Source: Olsenella uli DSM 7084 (GTDB lineage: Bacteria > Actinomycetota > Coriobacteriia > Coriobacteriales > Atopobiaceae). From it: a DNA stretch of 64,000 bases. The notes beneath the pieces are model-generated. The model ran no database searches and was not told the DNA's origin. It saw only the letters and a program-made list of their open reading frames with translations. Numbering within the stretch: position 1 is the stretch's first letter; the number at the start of each line of letters is the position of its first letter. The translations under genes were made by a program, and so were the position numbers. Below are positions 9,211 to 18,145 of this stretch, in pieces. The stretch spans positions 233,186 to 297,185 of the forward strand of contig NC_014363.1 in assembly GCF_000143845.1 (NCBI RefSeq). Direction: 5' to 3'.

Positions 9211-9280
9211 ATGGGTGTTAACCTGCGGAAATAATCTTCATACAGCGATTTGAGTGTGACTTACTACTCTTACCCACCAG

Positions 9281-9316
9281 TTGTACATTCATGCTTAATA
9301 TTAGATAATATTAAGC
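9281..9316 (+). promoter_or_regulatory. abiE promoter with overlapping palindromic operator
   Basis: TTGTAC (9281-9286), 17 bp, GATAAT (9304-9309). The -10 box is embedded in a perfect 24-bp palindrome GCTTAATATTA-GA-TAATATTAAGC (9293-9316). AbiEi antitoxins are known to autorepress by binding inverted repeats in their own promoter; this palindrome is the likely site. Confidence 0.75.
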
Positions 9317-9330
9317 GCGTTAGTACACAT

Positions 9331-9930
9331 GTGAGAGGAGAAAAGACGGACACTCTGTTGGACATAGCCACAAGCTGCAACGGCTACGTTACCTCTGCGC
9401 AGGCAACAGACGCCGGTATCCCCCGACGCAAGCTTACAGATGCCGTGAGCGCTGGCAAGCTCGTTCGGGTGGATCGCGGCCTCTACGCGCTTCCTGATGT
9501 ATGGGAGGACCCCCTCTACATCACCCAGCGCCGCTTCTCCCGCGGCGTCTTCTCAGACGACACGGCGCTCTTCCTCCACGGCATGACGGACCGTGCACCA
9601 TTCGCGCCGACGATGACCTTCCCCAGGAGCTACAACGCAACCGCAGCCAGGGCAGCTGGAATCATATGCCGCACCTGCGCCGATGATGTCCTCGATCTGG
9701 GGCTCTGCGATGTAAAGACTGAGTACGGTAACGCGGTCAGAGCCTATGACGTCGAGAGGACGCTCTGCGATCTTGTGCGCGGCCAGGGCACTCCTGATGC
9801 CCAATTGGTCACCCCAGCGATGAAATCCTACGTGCGAAGCAAGATCTGTGACCCCATGAAGCTCGTCGAGTACGCGCGTGCTCTCGGCGTTGAGGCAAAG
9901 ATCCGGAACTACCTGGAGGTGCTGCTGTGA
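9331..9930 (+). CDS. abiEi: AbiEi antitoxin / autorepressor
   Basis: About 195-199 aa. The N-terminal winged-helix (TLLDIATSCNGYVTSAQATD, AGIPRRKLTDAVSAGKLVRV, DRGLYAL) is the DNA-binding half, and the C-terminal half is the antitoxin domain (FSDDTALFLHGMTDRAPF, YDVERTLCDLVRGQG). It neutralises AbiEii and represses the operon. The start is odd. AGAGGAG (9334-9340) is correctly placed for codon 9346, which is ACG, not ATG. The nearest standard start is GTG 9331, used here, which has no Shine-Dalgarno and leaves a leader of ~15 nt. Either leaderless-like GTG initiation, or the ATG has mutated to ACG. Confidence 0.9.
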   Translation: MRGEKTDTLLDIATSCNGYVTSAQATDAGIPRRKLTDAVSAGKLVRVDRGLYALPDVWEDPLYITQRRFSRGVFSDDTALFLHGMTDRAPFAPTMTFPRSYNATAARAAGIICRTCADDVLDLGLCDVKTEYGNAVRAYDVERTLCDLVRGQGTPDAQLVTPAMKSYVRSKICDPMKLVEYARALGVEAKIRNYLEVLL

Positions 9931-10769
9931 GGACAAAGAACGCGATGCAGCTCAAAGCGCGCATCAACGCCCGAGCGAAGAATGTAGGCATTTCCGCGCA
10001 GTCCATGATGCAAAACTACCTTTTCGAGAGATTCCTCGAGCGCCTCTCGAAATCCAAATGGCGCAGCAACGTCGTCATCAAGGGCGGCATGCTCATCTCC
10101 TCTCTCGTGGGGGTGGCATCCAGGACGACGATGGACCTCGACACAACCATCACCGGCTTCACGCTGACGCATGAATCTGCCGAGAAGGTTTTTCGCGAGG
10201 TGGCCGCCGTGAGCGTGGATGATGACTGGAGCTTCGAGTTCGACCGCACCGAGGACATCAGGGAGGCCGACGACTACCCGGGCATACGCATACATCTCAA
10301 GGCGATATATCCACCGATGTCGGTACCACTCATGATTGATGTCACCACGGGCGACAGCATAATCCCGGGCCCCATCGCCTACAACTACCCGCTCCTGTTC
10401 GACGAGGGAAACGTTCGGCTGATGTCCTACCCGCTCGAGACGGTGCTCGCCGAGAAGCTCGAGACCGTCGTTTCGCGAGGCGTGACCAACACCCGCCCGC
10501 GCGACTTTTACGACATACACCTGCTATGGCGAACCAAGGGTGACAGTTGCGTTATCTCGACATTGTACGAAGCGCTCGAGGCCACGTGCGCTAAACGCGG
10601 CAGCGCCGAGCGGATGAAGCGTTGGCAGGTAGTCCTCGACGAAGTCTCAGCCGACCAGACGATGCTTGCGCTCTGGGGCAAATACATGAAGAAGAACCCC
10701 TACGCATCTGGCATAGAGTTGGCGCAGTGCTGCGAGACCGCGAGGAAGATACTAGGAGCGGCAATATGA
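9927..10769 (+). CDS. abiEii: AbiEii nucleotidyltransferase toxin
   Basis: 280 aa from GTG 9927, overlapping the antitoxin stop by 4 bp (GTGA), as is typical for abiE operons. Nucleotidyltransferase fold: KGGMLISSL (the GG/S motif), TTMDLDTTI (metal-binding D-x-D), and the C-terminal motif EKLETVVSRGVTNTRPRDFYD with the conserved Lys and Asp residues. AbiEii-type toxins arrest growth by nucleotide transfer (shown for relatives on tRNA) and give phage abortive infection. All key motifs look intact. Confidence 0.95.
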   Translation: MRTKNAMQLKARINARAKNVGISAQSMMQNYLFERFLERLSKSKWRSNVVIKGGMLISSLVGVASRTTMDLDTTITGFTLTHESAEKVFREVAAVSVDDDWSFEFDRTEDIREADDYPGIRIHLKAIYPPMSVPLMIDVTTGDSIIPGPIAYNYPLLFDEGNVRLMSYPLETVLAEKLETVVSRGVTNTRPRDFYDIHLLWRTKGDSCVISTLYEALEATCAKRGSAERMKRWQVVLDEVSADQTMLALWGKYMKKNPYASGIELAQCCETARKILGAAI

Positions 10770-12034: not shown

Positions 12035-12416
12035 ATGCCGTTTCCCACGTTGGAGATTTTTTTGCTGGACACTGTACAAGATGCGGTCCACGATCGGCTG
12101 AACGATGAGGTCTTGGACGCGAGCAATAGGGTTTACGAGGAATGCCTATCTCGCCAAGATTGTTAACGCGCTTCGTGTGCATTGGGATCTTAATGAGGAA
12201 GAAGCCATCGATTGCCTAGGGTATGAAAAGACCGAGGGAAAGCCGAACCGAAATCAAGAGAGATACCTGCTGCTGGAAGTCGGTCTTAAGCGGGATGAAG
12301 CTTGCGAGATTGCATTAAGGAGTCGCGAAATTTTTGATGAGGATTTAAGCCTGAGCACGCTAAGTGCCGAGGAGCTGTATAGGCGCATTCAAGAAAGGGC
12401 TTGCTATGAAGATTAG
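12035..12416 (+). pseudogene. Small gene upstream of the OLD-like ATPase, apparently split by a 1-nt frameshift
   Basis: Frame 12035-12166 encodes MPFPTLEIFLLDTVQDAVHD ... NRVYEE and stops. The other frame continues AYLAKIVNALRVHWDLNEEE to a stop at 12416. Dropping one base near 12143 joins them into a single ~127-aa helical protein (C-terminus SAEELYRRIQERACYED). The 3' end overlaps the ATPase start by 11 bp, so it was an operon partner. Whether this is decay, a programmed shift or a sequencing error cannot be told. No family recognised. Confidence 0.5.
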
Positions 12417-13968
12417 AAGCGTCGAGATAACGAATTTTCGCGGATATGCAAGCGAAACCGAAGTTGCAATGGATGACCTCACTGTTTTCGTAGGGAAAAA
12501 CGATATTGGCAAATCATCTGTTCTGGAGGCGCTTGATATTTTCTTCAACGACGGTAAGGGCGCAGTGAAGTTCGACAAATCAGATATTAACGTCGAAAAC
12601 CAAAAGGGCGGCGACCAGGAGGCTTCCATTGCTGTCGTATTTGCAGATCTTCCAGACGAGATTGTTATTGATACGACAGCAAAAACAAACTTAAAGGATT
12701 CGTATCTGCTCAATGGCGAAGACAAGCTTGAGATTGTCAAAAAGTACAAGGGGACTGGTGCCCCAAAGGTCTACATAAAGGCATTGCACCCTACGAATTC
12801 CGGGTGCTGCGACTTGCTTCTAAAGAAAAATGCCGATCTAAAGAAGCTAGTAAAGCAATACAAGCTCGAGGAAGAGGTGGACACAAAGAGCAATGTCTCA
12901 ATGAGGGCTGCCCTTTGGAGTCACTTCTCAGACGACCTCAAACTGCAGGAAATCGAAATCGATATCTCAAAAGAAGATGCGAAAGCAATTTGGAGCAAGC
13001 TTTCAACTTATATGCCCGTTTATTCCCTATTCCAAGCTGATCGCGAAAACAGCGATAGCGATAGCGAGGTGCAAGATCCGCTTAAGGAGTCGGTCAAAGA
13101 AGTCCTGAACGACCTAGCCTTGAAAGAGGAGCTTGACGAAGTGGCGCAAAAAGTCCGAGAAAAGCTGCAAGAGGTAGCTAATCGTACCGTAGACAAGCTG
13201 AAGGAAGTTGATCCTGAAGTCGCGAGTAGCCTTGATCCGGTAATACCCGCAACGGAGAGCTTGAAATGGGCGGATGTCTTCAAAAATGTCTCTATCACTG
13301 GGGATGGAGACATTCCGATAAACAAGCGTGGCAGTGGCACTAAGCGTTTAATCCTGCTGAGCTTCTTCCGCGCTGAGGCGGAGAGAAGGCTTGCCGAATC
13401 TGAGACGAACGGAGTGATTTACGCGATTGAAGAACCAGAAACGGCCCAGCACACCGAAAATCAGAAGAAACTAATAGAGGCACTCCAAGAGCTGTCAAAA
13501 ATTGATGGCGTGCAAGTCATACTAACGACCCACAGCCCTTACATAGTCAAACACTTGGAGTTTGAAAACCTCAGGCTGATTGCGAAGGGCAACAATCCTG
13601 GTGATAGGAAAATTTCCAAGGTGCTACCTGGGCAGCTGAGGTATCCATCACTAAATGAGGTTAACTTCATTGCCTTCAACGAATCGACCGAGGAATATCA
13701 TGATGAGCTGTATGGAGCCATCGAAGAAAACGAATGGTTGGGGGAATATAAGAGCAACAAACAGCTGGTCCCTTACAAGAAAGTTTGGAAGGGTTCAGTA
13801 ATGCCTATGGAAATACCTTTAACGGAATACATCCGCCATCAGATTCATCATCCTGAAAACAAGGAGAACGAAAGATATACACTCGAACAGTTGCATGAAT
13901 CGATTTGTATGATGAGAGATTTCATTAAGCAAAAGCGAAGCGAGAGCGACGAGGAATCAGCAGAGTAA
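12406..13968 (+). CDS. OLD/AAA15-like ATPase with HEPN-like C-terminal motif, probable phage defence
   Basis: 520 aa from ATG 12406. The SMC/OLD-type ATPase has N-terminal ITNFRGY, Walker A GKNDIGKSS, a central helical insert (~100-300), then the signature GSGTKRLILLSFF, Walker B YAIEEPETAQH and the switch TTHSPYIVKHL. Classic OLD proteins end in a TOPRIM nuclease, which is absent. Instead the last ~70 residues contain YIRHQIHHPENKEN, an R-x4-H arrangement like HEPN RNases (inference). GC content is far below the neighbours, which suggests transfer. A terminator follows at 14005. The likely role is a single- or two-gene defence system acting in the cytosol. Confidence 0.82.
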   Translation: MKIRSVEITNFRGYASETEVAMDDLTVFVGKNDIGKSSVLEALDIFFNDGKGAVKFDKSDINVENQKGGDQEASIAVVFADLPDEIVIDTTAKTNLKDSYLLNGEDKLEIVKKYKGTGAPKVYIKALHPTNSGCCDLLLKKNADLKKLVKQYKLEEEVDTKSNVSMRAALWSHFSDDLKLQEIEIDISKEDAKAIWSKLSTYMPVYSLFQADRENSDSDSEVQDPLKESVKEVLNDLALKEELDEVAQKVREKLQEVANRTVDKLKEVDPEVASSLDPVIPATESLKWADVFKNVSITGDGDIPINKRGSGTKRLILLSFFRAEAERRLAESETNGVIYAIEEPETAQHTENQKKLIEALQELSKIDGVQVILTTHSPYIVKHLEFENLRLIAKGNNPGDRKISKVLPGQLRYPSLNEVNFIAFNESTEEYHDELYGAIEENEWLGEYKSNKQLVPYKKVWKGSVMPMEIPLTEYIRHQIHHPENKENERYTLEQLHESICMMRDFIKQKRSESDEESAE

Positions 13969-14083: not shown

Positions 14084-14378
14084 ACCCCGGACGCGCAAAT
14101 TAGCGCCCCCCAGTTCAGGGCCGTCACTCTTCACTCAATACCCGTCACTCTTCGGTCGGCATGCGCCCCATCCCGCCGGTGCCGTTTCCACCCATGCAGT
14201 CAGTTGCACGCAATAAAATGCGTTTGAGCAGATCAAGCATGCCACTCTTAGTTCGGGCGAAAACATTCTCCCCAGGTGACTACGGAGCATGTAGCCACCG
14301 CCGACTACAGGGTGACCACACTGTTTTCACGATAGGCGAGTGGAGGAAACCCATCTCAACCAATCCGTCGGCTATATA
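14084..14378 (+). repeat. Attachment-proximal repeat region A
   Basis: Carries GTCACTCTTCACTCA (14123), GTCACTCTTCGGTCGG (14144) and GCCACTCTTAGTTCGG (14241), then TTCTCCCCAGGTGACTAC and a GTTTTCACGATAG word before the core at 14379. Homologous in order and spacing to regions B (16801-17076) and C (17994-18127). The repeats look like arm-type binding sites of a tyrosine recombinase; that function is inferred. Confidence 0.75.
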
Positions 14379-14592: not shown

Positions 14593-14805
14593 ATGACGGC
14601 ATTGACGATGGGGCTCTCAGAGGCCAAGAATAATTTCTCTCGTGTGACGGCAGAGGTGAACAGGACGGGCAAGTCAGTCACCATCTTGAAGAACAACAAG
14701 CCCTGGGTCGTAATCCAACCGGCTCGGGAGAATAGCAACGCCACGGACGTGGCAGTCGACTTTATGGACGAGTACGCAGATGTGTTCGAAGAGCTTGCCA
14801 AGTGA
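14593..14805 (+). CDS. Phd/YefM family antitoxin
   Basis: 70 aa from ATG 14593 with AGGAGG seven bases upstream. MGLSEAKNNFSRVTAEVNRT, SVTILKNNKPWVVIQPA are the Phd/YefM N-terminal DNA-binding and dimerisation motifs. The C-terminal DFMDEYADVFEELAK is the toxin-binding tail. It represses its own promoter and neutralises Doc. It overlaps the toxin start by 4 bp. It appears intact although its toxin partner is broken. Confidence 0.92.
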   Translation: MTALTMGLSEAKNNFSRVTAEVNRTGKSVTILKNNKPWVVIQPARENSNATDVAVDFMDEYADVFEELAK

Positions 14806-15184
14806 GCGTCCTAGCCTTCTCCAAAGAAGATGTCCTGGCTATCCACGCGTCTGCAATCGAGCGGTTTGGCGGGCTTGATGGCTTACGCGACGAGGGGCTC
14901 CTCGACTCGGCGTTAGCGCAACCGCTCCAAACCTTCGGTGGAGCAAACCTGTACCCAAGCGCTATCGACAGGGCGTGCAGATGCGCCTTCGGCATCATAT
15001 CCGACCCCCGTTTCTCGATGGCAACAAGAGAACAGGCGCCGCCCTGCTCGGCACATACCTCAGGATGTCTGGCATTGGCTTCAGGCCTGACCACGCAGCC
15101 TTCCTCAAGGTCATGCTAGGTGTTGCGGATGGGTCGGTAGGCTACGATGCGCTCGTCGATTGGGTTGAAAGCGTAGTGGCATAA
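14802..15184 (+). pseudogene. doc: Doc (death-on-curing, Fic-fold) toxin, frameshifted at the catalytic motif
   Basis: GTG 14802 begins VLAFSKEDVLAIHASAIERF and GLRDEGLLDSAL, standard Doc. The frame is lost at ~15003-15005 and the other frame continues PFLDGNKRTGAALLGTYL to a stop at 15184. Comparing with the family motif H-P-F-x-D-G-N-K-R, one base is missing where the His codon should be (GACCCCCGTTT instead of GAC-CAC-CCG-TTT). So the single-base deletion removes the catalytic His and shifts the frame. Doc phosphorylates EF-Tu; this copy should be dead unless the base is a sequencing error. Confidence 0.88.
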
Positions 15185-15193
15185 AGCGCTCCG

Positions 15194-15536
15194 TGACCTG
15201 CGGCACATCCATGAGGCCATTCGCCAGGTCGCTTGCTTCGGATGTCGAGGAGGCGGCAGATCTTTAGTTTCTCTGCCCCGGCATCCTCGCGGCCTTCCGC
15301 ATCATCATCCGATATTGCATGGGGTGCCGGGAACGCGCCGCGCGGCATCTGGGGGACGCCGCCTTTCGTGGGATGGCGAACCGTCCTCTCGTCTCGCATC
15401 CTTTGCCCTCGGGTCGCAACGAGGCCCAAGGAGTCGCGTCTTTTCGACGTGACAAGCAGAGAGATACCTGTTGGGAGGCGCGTGCGCAAAGACACGCGGG
15501 GCGTTAGGCCACGCTAAGGCTCGCTAGGTTGTGGAT
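15194..15536. repeat. Long dispersed repeat, copy 2 (~343 bp)
   Basis: Homologous to 11519-11857. The right 86 bp (15451-15536) are almost identical. The three 10-bp words are at 15502-15531. It lies 67 bp upstream of the 384-aa gene, between a toxin-antitoxin pair and a variable gene, as copy 1 does. Confidence 0.85.
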
Positions 15537-15602: not shown

Positions 15603-16757
15603 TTGGCTAAGACTACGAACAAAACGAGCAGTCTCACAAGCGAGGAGATCCTTGGGCGCTTCGTTGTACGCGCGCGGAGAGTCGAGGATCATTCGCTAGT
15701 CAAAAATGGGGATATCGAGCGCTACGCCACTCCCAGGATGACGTTTAGCGTAACCGAGACTGGCAGCGCGAGTACTCAGCATCACGTATGCACCGATGAG
15801 AAGGCTATAGAATCACTTGCGACGAGGCTGCGTCCCTTCATCGTAAGGAGCGAGCCGATATATCTGCCAAAGATACTCGATGCCATTTGCGCTCAAGCGC
15901 CCGGCGAAGCACTCTCGGAAAACGAAGCCGAGGTTTTGGAAACCACGAAGAGCTGGTTCTCCCATCGTTACGAGAAAAAAGACAGCGAACGCTACGGGGT
16001 CCAGCTTATAGGGAGAGACGGTGAGCTCCTGACTAGCCTGCTCTCTGACGCGCTACTTGCAGAGGCCTGGATTTACACGGATGCAGTGCACGCCGACCCG
16101 AAGGGAGAAAAGGCAGAGGCGCAAAAGCTTAGCTACTCTGATCGCTATAGGGCAGCTTCCTCGTACTCCTGCGAATTTGCCAGTGTAATCGTAAATTTGC
16201 TCAACCTTGTTCGCTCGCTCTCGGAAAGGAGTCTGCTTCAAGTGCCGGATTCTGCCTGGACCGAACCCGCGTCTTATGCCGAAGCGGATAAAAACGACCA
16301 AGAGCAGATTGCCGCGGGTTCAGCGTATGTCTTTCCAATAGGGACCGAAATTCCCGCAGGAGCTAATCCCGAAGACATCCCAGGTGCGCGCAAGGCGACT
16401 CCTGCAGTGATGCTCAGACTGCAGCATCCTGAGAGCTCTGCGACCGTAATATCGTTCGATATTAGCCAGAAGCACGCAAGCTGTTACGAGGCGATTTACA
16501 GCAGTAAAGACGGGTTTCTGGTGTTTTGCATCGATGAAATCGGCAAGCTGATGATTTCAAAGGAGGCTATGGCTCAAGGAGGCGGGCCAGTTGGTTCAAT
16601 TTCTTTTGCAGCAAGCGAGTCGCACCAATCTGAGGCTCACGATTTCCTCGCATCAATAGCTCCACCAAACATCTTCGGCCTTAAATTTATATTTGAGGGA
16701 AAGCCGATATTTGCGCTTTTGCAGCCGTCGAAACGTATTGCGGCAACAACAAAATAG
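15603..16757 (+). CDS. Hypothetical 384-aa protein, cargo of the third guaA cassette
   Basis: Start TTG 15603, with AGAAGGGA five bases upstream. Soluble, no signal peptide. Visible blocks are LGRFVVRARRVEDHS, a central IYLPKILDAICAQAPGEA, ETTKSWFSHRYEKKDSERYG, LLAEAWIYTDAVHADPKGEK (similar in feel to a W-x-Y-x-D-x-V-H-x-D block of uncharacterised actinobacterial proteins), and a beta-rich C-terminus. No known catalytic motif is certain. Its position between the dispersed repeat and attachment region B mirrors that of the OLD-like gene, so a defence role is a reasonable guess, no more. Confidence 0.75.
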   Translation: MAKTTNKTSSLTSEEILGRFVVRARRVEDHSLVKNGDIERYATPRMTFSVTETGSASTQHHVCTDEKAIESLATRLRPFIVRSEPIYLPKILDAICAQAPGEALSENEAEVLETTKSWFSHRYEKKDSERYGVQLIGRDGELLTSLLSDALLAEAWIYTDAVHADPKGEKAEAQKLSYSDRYRAASSYSCEFASVIVNLLNLVRSLSERSLLQVPDSAWTEPASYAEADKNDQEQIAAGSAYVFPIGTEIPAGANPEDIPGARKATPAVMLRLQHPESSATVISFDISQKHASCYEAIYSSKDGFLVFCIDEIGKLMISKEAMAQGGGPVGSISFAASESHQSEAHDFLASIAPPNIFGLKFIFEGKPIFALLQPSKRIAATTK

Positions 16758-16800: not shown

Positions 16801-17076
16801 ACTTCGATGTCGCCAAATTGCATTCCCCAGCCCAGAGGCGTCGCTCTTCAGTCGGAAATCGTCACTCTTGGGTCGGGGAGCGCCCCACCCTGTCGGCGCC
16901 GTTTCAGCCCATATAGCCAGTTGCACGCAATCTAACTGCGTTTTCGCAGGTCAGGGCTGTCACTCTTCGGTCGAGCAAAAATACTCTCCCCAAGTGACTG
17001 CACGGTTTTCGCGACAGCAGAGCGACAATAACCGCAGGTCAGACGATGTGCTGACTACACGGAAATGGCTGATGTA
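16801..17076 (+). repeat. Attachment-proximal repeat region B
   Basis: GTCGCTCTTCAGTCGG (16840), GTCACTCTTGGGTCGG (16861) and GTCACTCTTCGGTCGA (16959). The first two are 21 bp apart and the third 98 bp further, matching region A (21 and 97). Then TACTCTCCCCAAGTGACTGC, GTTTTCGCGACAGCAGAG and ACCGCAGGTCAGACGATG before the core. Confidence 0.78.
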
Positions 17077-17094
17077 ACCATCGAGTGGGAGTAA
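17077..17094 (+). repeat. guaA 3'-end attachment core, copy 4
   Basis: ACC-ATC-GAG-TGG-GAG-TAA (T-I-E-W-E-stop), with a synonymous Thr codon and TAA in place of TAG. Confidence 0.8.
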
Positions 17095-17489: not shown

Positions 17490-17954
17490 GTGTTGAAGGC
17501 ATTAGTTGTATATTATTCATATTCAGGAATAACAAGAAGATTAGCTGAAGATATTGCGTTGATTACAGACGGAGAATTGAGAGAACTGAAACCACAAAAA
17601 CCTTATTCATTTTCATACAATACAGCTGTAAAAGAAGCGAGAGAAGAAATTGAAAAAGGGTATTGCCCGCCGCTTGCAGAAGGGGTGGAACCAGTTGAGG
17701 GTGCAGAAGTAATTTTTATAGGCTCACCGAACTGGCTCAAAACTTTTGCGCCACCTGTTTTGACATTTTTGAAGACGGTTGATTTGAGCGGAAGAACAAT
17801 AATTCCATTTTGCACTCATGGTGGTGGAGGTTTTGGGAGGATGATTGAGGACTATAAAAAAGAATGTAGAAATTCAATCATAAAAGAAGGGATAGCCTTA
17901 AAGGGAGACTACAGTTTTGATGAGCTTCAAAGCTGGTTAAATAATAATTTGTAA
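17490..17954 (+). CDS. Flavodoxin-like protein, low-GC, horizontally acquired
   Basis: 154 aa from GTG 17490 (GGGAG, 6-nt spacer). Starts LKALVVYYSYSGITRRLAED: the flavodoxin beta-1/phosphate loop (YYSYSGITRR) that binds the FMN phosphate. Later blocks are VIFIGSPNWLKTFAPPVLTF and IIPFCTHGGGGFGRMIEDY, typical of the Flavodoxin_4-type single-domain proteins. An FMN electron carrier or quinone/nitro reductase role is likely; the partner is unknown. Base composition and A-ending codons differ sharply from all flanking genes and look like a Firmicutes source. It is the only gene in its guaA cassette. Confidence 0.9.
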   Translation: MLKALVVYYSYSGITRRLAEDIALITDGELRELKPQKPYSFSYNTAVKEAREEIEKGYCPPLAEGVEPVEGAEVIFIGSPNWLKTFAPPVLTFLKTVDLSGRTIIPFCTHGGGGFGRMIEDYKKECRNSIIKEGIALKGDYSFDELQSWLNNNL

Positions 17955-17993: not shown

Positions 17994-18127
17994 GGAGACA
18001 ATCCGTGCTGCAACTCTTCTGCCGGGCGAAACCACTCTTCGCAAGTGACTACATGGTTTTCGCGATAGTAGAGTGACAATAACTGCAGGTCAGATGATAT
18101 GCTTGCTACATGGAAACGGGCCATGCA
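17994..18127 (+). repeat. Attachment-proximal repeat region C (shorter)
   Basis: GCAACTCTTCTGCCGG (18010) matches the third repeat of regions A and B. It is followed by CTCTTCGCAAGTGACTAC, GGTTTTCGCGATAGTAGAGT, GACAATAACTGCAGGTCAGA and TGGAAACGGGCCATGCA, aligned with region B up to the core. The two upstream repeats are missing, so the region is truncated at its left side. Confidence 0.75.
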
Positions 18128-18145
18128 ACCATTGAGTGGGAGTAG
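18128..18145 (+). repeat. guaA 3'-end attachment core, copy 5
   Basis: ACC-ATT-GAG-TGG-GAG-TAG (T-I-E-W-E-stop), synonymous in the Thr and Ile codons. Confidence 0.78.

Follow-up and report, generated by a model that had tools for sequence, protein, structure and literature searches.

Next to a broken small gene, the Olsenella uli DSM 7084 genome carries a gene of low GC content for an ATPase whose head is of the OLD type and whose C-terminal end is not the TOPRIM domain of the OLD nucleases. What kind of effector is this end, and does the protein need the small gene as a partner? The gene lies in the stretch of 64,000 nucleotides of contig NC_014363.1 that was analysed here, referred to as the window.

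The ATPase gene, its head and its relatives

The gene runs from an ATG at 12406 to a stop codon ending at 13968 on the forward strand and encodes an intact protein of 520 aa; a 534-aa ORF starting at GTG 12364 was discarded as a mechanical extension of it. The complete 2.05-Mb genome contains one copy. The earlier note had placed its GC content far below the surroundings, in line with the 45.6% found for the gene vs 60.5% for the window, and GC3 is 0.52 vs 0.78-0.83 in abiEii and guaA.

12406..13968, + strand: OLD-type ABC ATPase with a HEPN-like tail, 520 aa, intact; relatives 49-62% identical over the full length
12406..13614, + strand: ABC/OLD ATPase head (Pfam AAA_15, residues 1-381); AAA_15 E 4e-98, PADLOC AriA 3e-81, VIA-align
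12493..12516, + strand: Walker A, GKNDIGKS, residues 30-37; G30, N32, D33, G35, K36 and S37 invariant in 45 sequences
13414..13440, + strand: Walker B and D-loop, VIYAIEEPE, residues 337-345; E342-E345 invariant

An OLD-like ATPase with all ABC/OLD motifs had been recognised before, and the head is indeed intact. Pfam AAA_15 covers residues 1-381 (E 4e-98), the best PADLOC model is AriA, and the modelled head resembles those of SMC, Rad50, OLD and GajA, with VIA-align Z scores of 17-20 against the heads of SMC, TsOLD (6p74) and GajA. G30, K36 and S37 of Walker A, S310-G311 of the signature, E342-E345 of Walker B and H376 of the H-loop are all in place and invariant in the 45 aligned sequences. 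No Pfam domain other than AAA_15 was found by a Pfam scan of the protein, with no significant match past residue 381, and the acidic motifs of TOPRIM are absent.

In a single scan of 84,980 species genomes, 64 loci were found. About 50 relatives are 49-62% identical to the protein across its whole length, tail included, and the complete ones together with the window's own protein make up the alignment of 45 sequences. They come from many phyla (Actinomycetota, Bacillota, Bacteroidota, Campylobacterota, Pseudomonadota, Chloroflexota and others) and include proteins of Bifidobacterium and Lachnospiraceae; full-length copies also occur on viral contigs (L152-L154). Within the actinobacterial phylum matches were confined to 2 of 296 genomes, that of Olsenella uli and one with a distant head bearing the same tail. 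The ATPase family has a wide horizontal spread.

The C-terminal tail

13615..13965, + strand: HEPN-like tail, residues 404-520; AlphaFold2 models of the whole protein and of the tail alone, alignment of 45 sequences
13834..13851, + strand: R477-x4-H482 motif, RHQIHH; neither residue varies among 45 sequences or among 14 far-diverged tails

The protein ends in a conserved domain, some 105 aa long, whose invariant R-x4-H is located in YIRHQIHHPENKEN at residues 475-488, and among the invariant R and H residues the sole R-x4-6-H pair sits inside this stretch. Invariant tail residues in the 45 sequences include P414, S415, N417, E418, Y431, H432, E434, R477, I480, H481, H482, N485, N488, S499 and R504, and only E418, H432, R477, H482, S499 and I500 are invariant in 14 tails on diverged heads. 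The most diverged tails have D instead of H481 in two of the 14 and Q, H or L instead of E434, with R477 and H482 kept, and the residue after R477 is H, N or D only, also when the diverged tails are added. R477 and H482 are unchanged even in seven proteins with only distantly related ATPase heads; such distant heads with an R-x4-H tail are L002, L076 and L077, plasmid proteins of Klebsiella, Weissella and Latilactobacillus, and a protein of a Lactobacillus helveticus plasmid. Judged from the alignment, the invariance of R-x4-H in the 45 and seven more distant sequences is well beyond chance, the pattern R[NHD]x[ILVM]xH arising in 1.2% of shuffles of the ATPase protein. Searches of Pfam, NCBIfam, PADLOC and PHROGs returned no significant match to the tail. 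The ATPase relative on the Latilactobacillus plasmid (L157, 4910-6378) is apparently broken into three annotated ORFs; its tail keeps R-x4-H.

The tail modelled alone by AlphaFold2 has a pLDDT of 91, with values above 90 across most of its length. Its elements are helices at 416-424, 429-441 and 445-449, a beta hairpin at 454-471, and helices at 472-481 and 493-519. Of the four main helices the third has the R-x4-H at its end, and an insert separates it from the second. HEPN domains have four core helices and carry R-x4-6-H with mostly N, D or H as the next residue; the motif closes helix 3, which an insert sets apart from helix 2 (PMC3710099). The tail agrees with the motif rule (polar N, D or H after R, Rx4-6H) in the 45 and the 14 diverged sequences, and the order of its predicted secondary-structure elements agrees with the layout rule, the comparison being one of order and not of 3D packing. 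In SO_3166 the RNIAVH motif also lies at a helix end, and toxicity needs both its R and its H (PMC4621449). HepT/HEPN-MNT proteins such as SO_3166 share with the tail an R-[N/H/D]-x-h-x-H that terminates a helix and precedes the last one, but they are toxins that stand alone, with MNT antitoxins as partners, and have no detectable sequence homology to it.

Structure searches with the tail model were of little power: Foldseek gave best E values of 0.34 (PDB) and 0.11 (viral) and VIA-align a best Z of 3.0, neither listed a meaningful match, and the lack of a HEPN among those listed was not counted as evidence. The hhalign comparisons of the tail with PF05168 and HepT (P 0.018 and 0.04) were not significant, a result of little weight because in the control the same test could not link HEPN with HepT, two accepted HEPN families. 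Against a HEPN assignment, the first helices are shorter than usual in a HEPN, the beta hairpin is an addition, and invariant E418, H432 and H481 (the last in close relatives) would suit a metal site too. We describe the tail as HEPN-like by motif and predicted topology, which is not proven membership. Of the earlier proposal of a HEPN-like tail, the R-x4-H, the polar next residue, the cross-phylum conservation and, in the suggested structure prediction, the helix layout have held, and the structure and profile searches listed no significant HEPN match.

Closely related ATPase heads bear two different C-termini. A sister branch (L055-L062 and the plasmid proteins L079 and L080) consists of proteins of about 610 aa that are 40-48% identical in the head, over about residues 1-394, and have in place of the R-x4-H tail a TOPRIM-like C-terminus with CVEGPxD and a DxD acidic motif. 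In the head tree a branch with SH-aLRT 98 separates the TOPRIM proteins from the rest, and weakly supported forks nest them among the tail-bearing ones; the AU test does not reject a topology that groups the tail-bearing proteins (p = 0.60). The note had spoken of a TOPRIM domain replaced by the tail. This ATPase lacks TOPRIM and the sister branch carries it, but a replacement of one by the other is not shown, since on the head tree either C-terminus may be the ancestral one.

The metal-dependent TOPRIM nuclease of the sister branch, the dense set of invariant E and H residues and the failure of fold and profile searches to return a HEPN would all fit a tail that has nothing to do with HEPN and is a novel nuclease or hydrolase domain, in which E418, H432, E434, H481 and H482 bind metal and DNA is cut as by other OLD proteins. 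The variation pattern is harder to reconcile with such a site, as the most diverged tails vary H481 and E434 yet keep R477 and H482, and R-x4-H catalysis fits this better; the restriction to N, H or D after R also speaks against such a site. We regard a domain unrelated to HEPN as unlikely and prefer the HEPN-like reading.

The small upstream gene and the genomic surroundings

12035..12166, + strand: small upstream gene, N-terminal piece, 43 aa, first frame; no relative found
12105..12416, + strand: small upstream gene, C-terminal piece, second frame, probably a passenger pseudogene; 32% identity over 84 aa to L068
11515..11857, + strand: left copy of a long direct repeat around the segment with the ATPase gene; 84% identical to 15191-15536
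15191..15536, + strand: right copy of the long direct repeat

As reported earlier, the small gene overlaps the ATPase gene by 11 bp (12406-12416) and is broken between two frames, and the split is real in assembly GCF_000143845.1. The earlier note had also made it the partner of the ATPase, a role that we reject. The two pieces were searched for with the frames unjoined in 396 genomes of the phylum, in plasmids, in viral contigs and in all fetched loci, and the sole relative found, a distant one, was an intact single-frame ORF of 144 aa (L068), which matches the C-terminal piece (E 8e-7). The suggested search for intact partner homologues thus yielded one such frame, and none at ATPase loci. 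That the small gene is a real partner, for instance an antitoxin, in a system of two genes that a frameshift or a fault in the assembly has disrupted, would agree with the overlap and with an intact relative of its C-terminal part elsewhere; it appears highly improbable to us, as no relative of the small gene turned up at any of 55 homologous loci, the genome with L068 has no such ATPase, and the N-terminal piece does not match the L068 ORF. The frameshifted gene appears to be an unrelated passenger that is not needed.

The small gene, the ATPase gene and a Phd/Doc pair are bracketed by the two copies of the direct repeat, which is about 345 bp long and nearly identical over its last ~70 bp. 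These copies are the only two genome-wide, and no copy was found in plasmids or viral contigs. No RNA family in the repeat-flanked segment reached its gathering score. A second repeat pair (14092-14281 and 16811-16999, 76% identical) makes up, with the first, two units of left repeat, cargo and right repeat with unrelated cargo, the ATPase in one and a 384-aa protein in the other, a layout that looks as if cargo had been swapped between conserved ends. A third pair (16956-17093 and 18007-18144, 80%) brackets a flavodoxin-like gene at 17490-17954.

The neighbours of the ATPase gene in the window are AbiEi/AbiEii, Phd and a split Doc. The AbiEi/AbiEii pair (9250-10769) is apparently intact and lies beside the low-GC island. 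At 14593-15184 a Phd antitoxin gene is followed by a Doc/Fic toxin gene split in two frames (14802-15119 and 14975-15184), so that two split genes, this one and the small gene, lie no more than 3 kb apart. The 384-aa protein (15603-16757), also in the low-GC island, had no significant match in Pfam, PADLOC or NCBIfam. No restriction-modification (R-M) gene adjoins this copy of the ATPase gene, and the one N6-methylase family gene of the genome is ~1.67 Mb away.

At 27 of the 55 tail-type loci, which are mainly full-length and in some cases partial, a same-strand gene lies within 100 bp. The commonest Pfam families among the 97 neighbour genes of the relatives were those of R-M, namely Methylase_S (6), ResIII (6), HSDR_N (4), N6_N4_Mtase (4), RE_NgoBV (3), RE_Eco47II (2), HaeIII, TdeIII and AlwI; Fic (2) and RhuM (1) were also present. 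The relatives most often adjoin R-M genes of types I, II and III or stand alone, for example as single genes on plasmids.

In PtuA/PtuB the ATPase works with a separate nuclease. Reliance on a separate nuclease, as there and in AriA/AriB, and the frequent R-M neighbours of unrelated types would be compatible with a tail that is a non-enzymatic docking or dimerisation domain recruiting a nuclease such as the adjacent R-M enzyme. This we hold to be quite improbable, since many relatives are solo and since an interface for many unrelated R-M enzymes is not expected to fix the same polar residues across phyla.

Known systems and the proposed function

PrrC, RloC and APECO1_4465 have long coiled-coil heads of the AAA_13 type. 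They resemble the present protein in that an ABC-type ATPase is followed by a C-terminal HEPN RNase domain, HEPN-like here, and in having R-M, Fic and RhuM neighbours. PrrC/RloC differ in the AAA_13-type head, the head being AAA_15 here, and no AAA_13 match was found in the ATPase protein or in the Olsenella uli genome. APECO1_4465 was taken to be WP_000423308.1 (L163), an identity inferred from the order of gene numbers in the P2-like prophage of APEC O1, and was rejected as a member of the same family as it has no real similarity to the head or tail and no RHxxHH-type tail motif. R-M, Fic/Doc and RhuM genes are described as neighbours of PrrC/RloC, and PrrC is described as an R-M guard (PMC3710099).

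The OLD nucleases (P2 Old, T. scotoductus OLD and GajA) have the ABC head fold in common with the protein but end in TOPRIM, which is absent here, and where Gabija has an adjacent UvrD-like helicase gene, gajB, no helicase-sized gene adjoins the ATPase gene in the window. PARIS is close in its AAA_15 head, as reflected in the match to the AriA model (3e-81). It differs in that AriA works with AriB (DUF4435), whereas the ATPase here bears a C-terminal effector-like domain of its own; DUF4435/AriB is absent from the protein and the scanned window neighbours and is not among the 25 commonest neighbour families of the relatives. The ERFG_01251-type ABC-HEPN is an ABC ATPase with HEPN/TOPRIM-NTD1 and a classical HEPN. 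Fusions of ABC and HEPN are already known, and the R-x4-H tail is without a model in the four libraries searched. Since none of them covers this tail, current defence models give the protein no label beyond 'AriA'-like ATPase.

We propose, with a probability of roughly 60%, that the gene is a one-gene abortive-infection effector in which an OLD-type ABC ATPase sensor is joined to a HEPN-like RNase tail and acts as a PrrC-like guard. The motifs of the ATPase, the conservation of the tail motif and the R-M genes around the relatives are observations; RNase activity, trigger, substrate and suicidal outcome we infer by analogy with PrrC and AriA, as follows. As an ATP-dependent dimer, the head would detect a sign of infection, as do PrrC, beside type I R-M, and the AriA of PARIS, which senses anti-restriction proteins (PMC12839542); the most plausible signals are the disturbance of restriction by a phage or a DNA structure. 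A conformational change of the head would free or pair the tails. Like HEPN RNases, these may then cut RNA, with tRNA as the first candidate substrate and no metal required, and translation and phage growth would stop. Since the relatives adjoin R-M genes of types I, II and III or stand alone, the gene may be seen as a portable second line behind restriction.

We put at about even odds the wider reading that the tail represents a portable, unnamed HEPN family, or a new R-x4-H RNase fold, which is exchanged with TOPRIM on OLD-type heads and occurs also on at least one distant ABC head group, and that it would constitute a widespread single-gene suicide system tied to R-M. If true, OLD-type ATPase sensors would have a modular build in which nearly the same head can take either a TOPRIM effector that cuts DNA or a HEPN-like one that cuts RNA, and the trigger of the head would therefore be testable by comparing or swapping tails. 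A compact and easily cloned single-gene member would then be added to the suicide systems linked to R-M.
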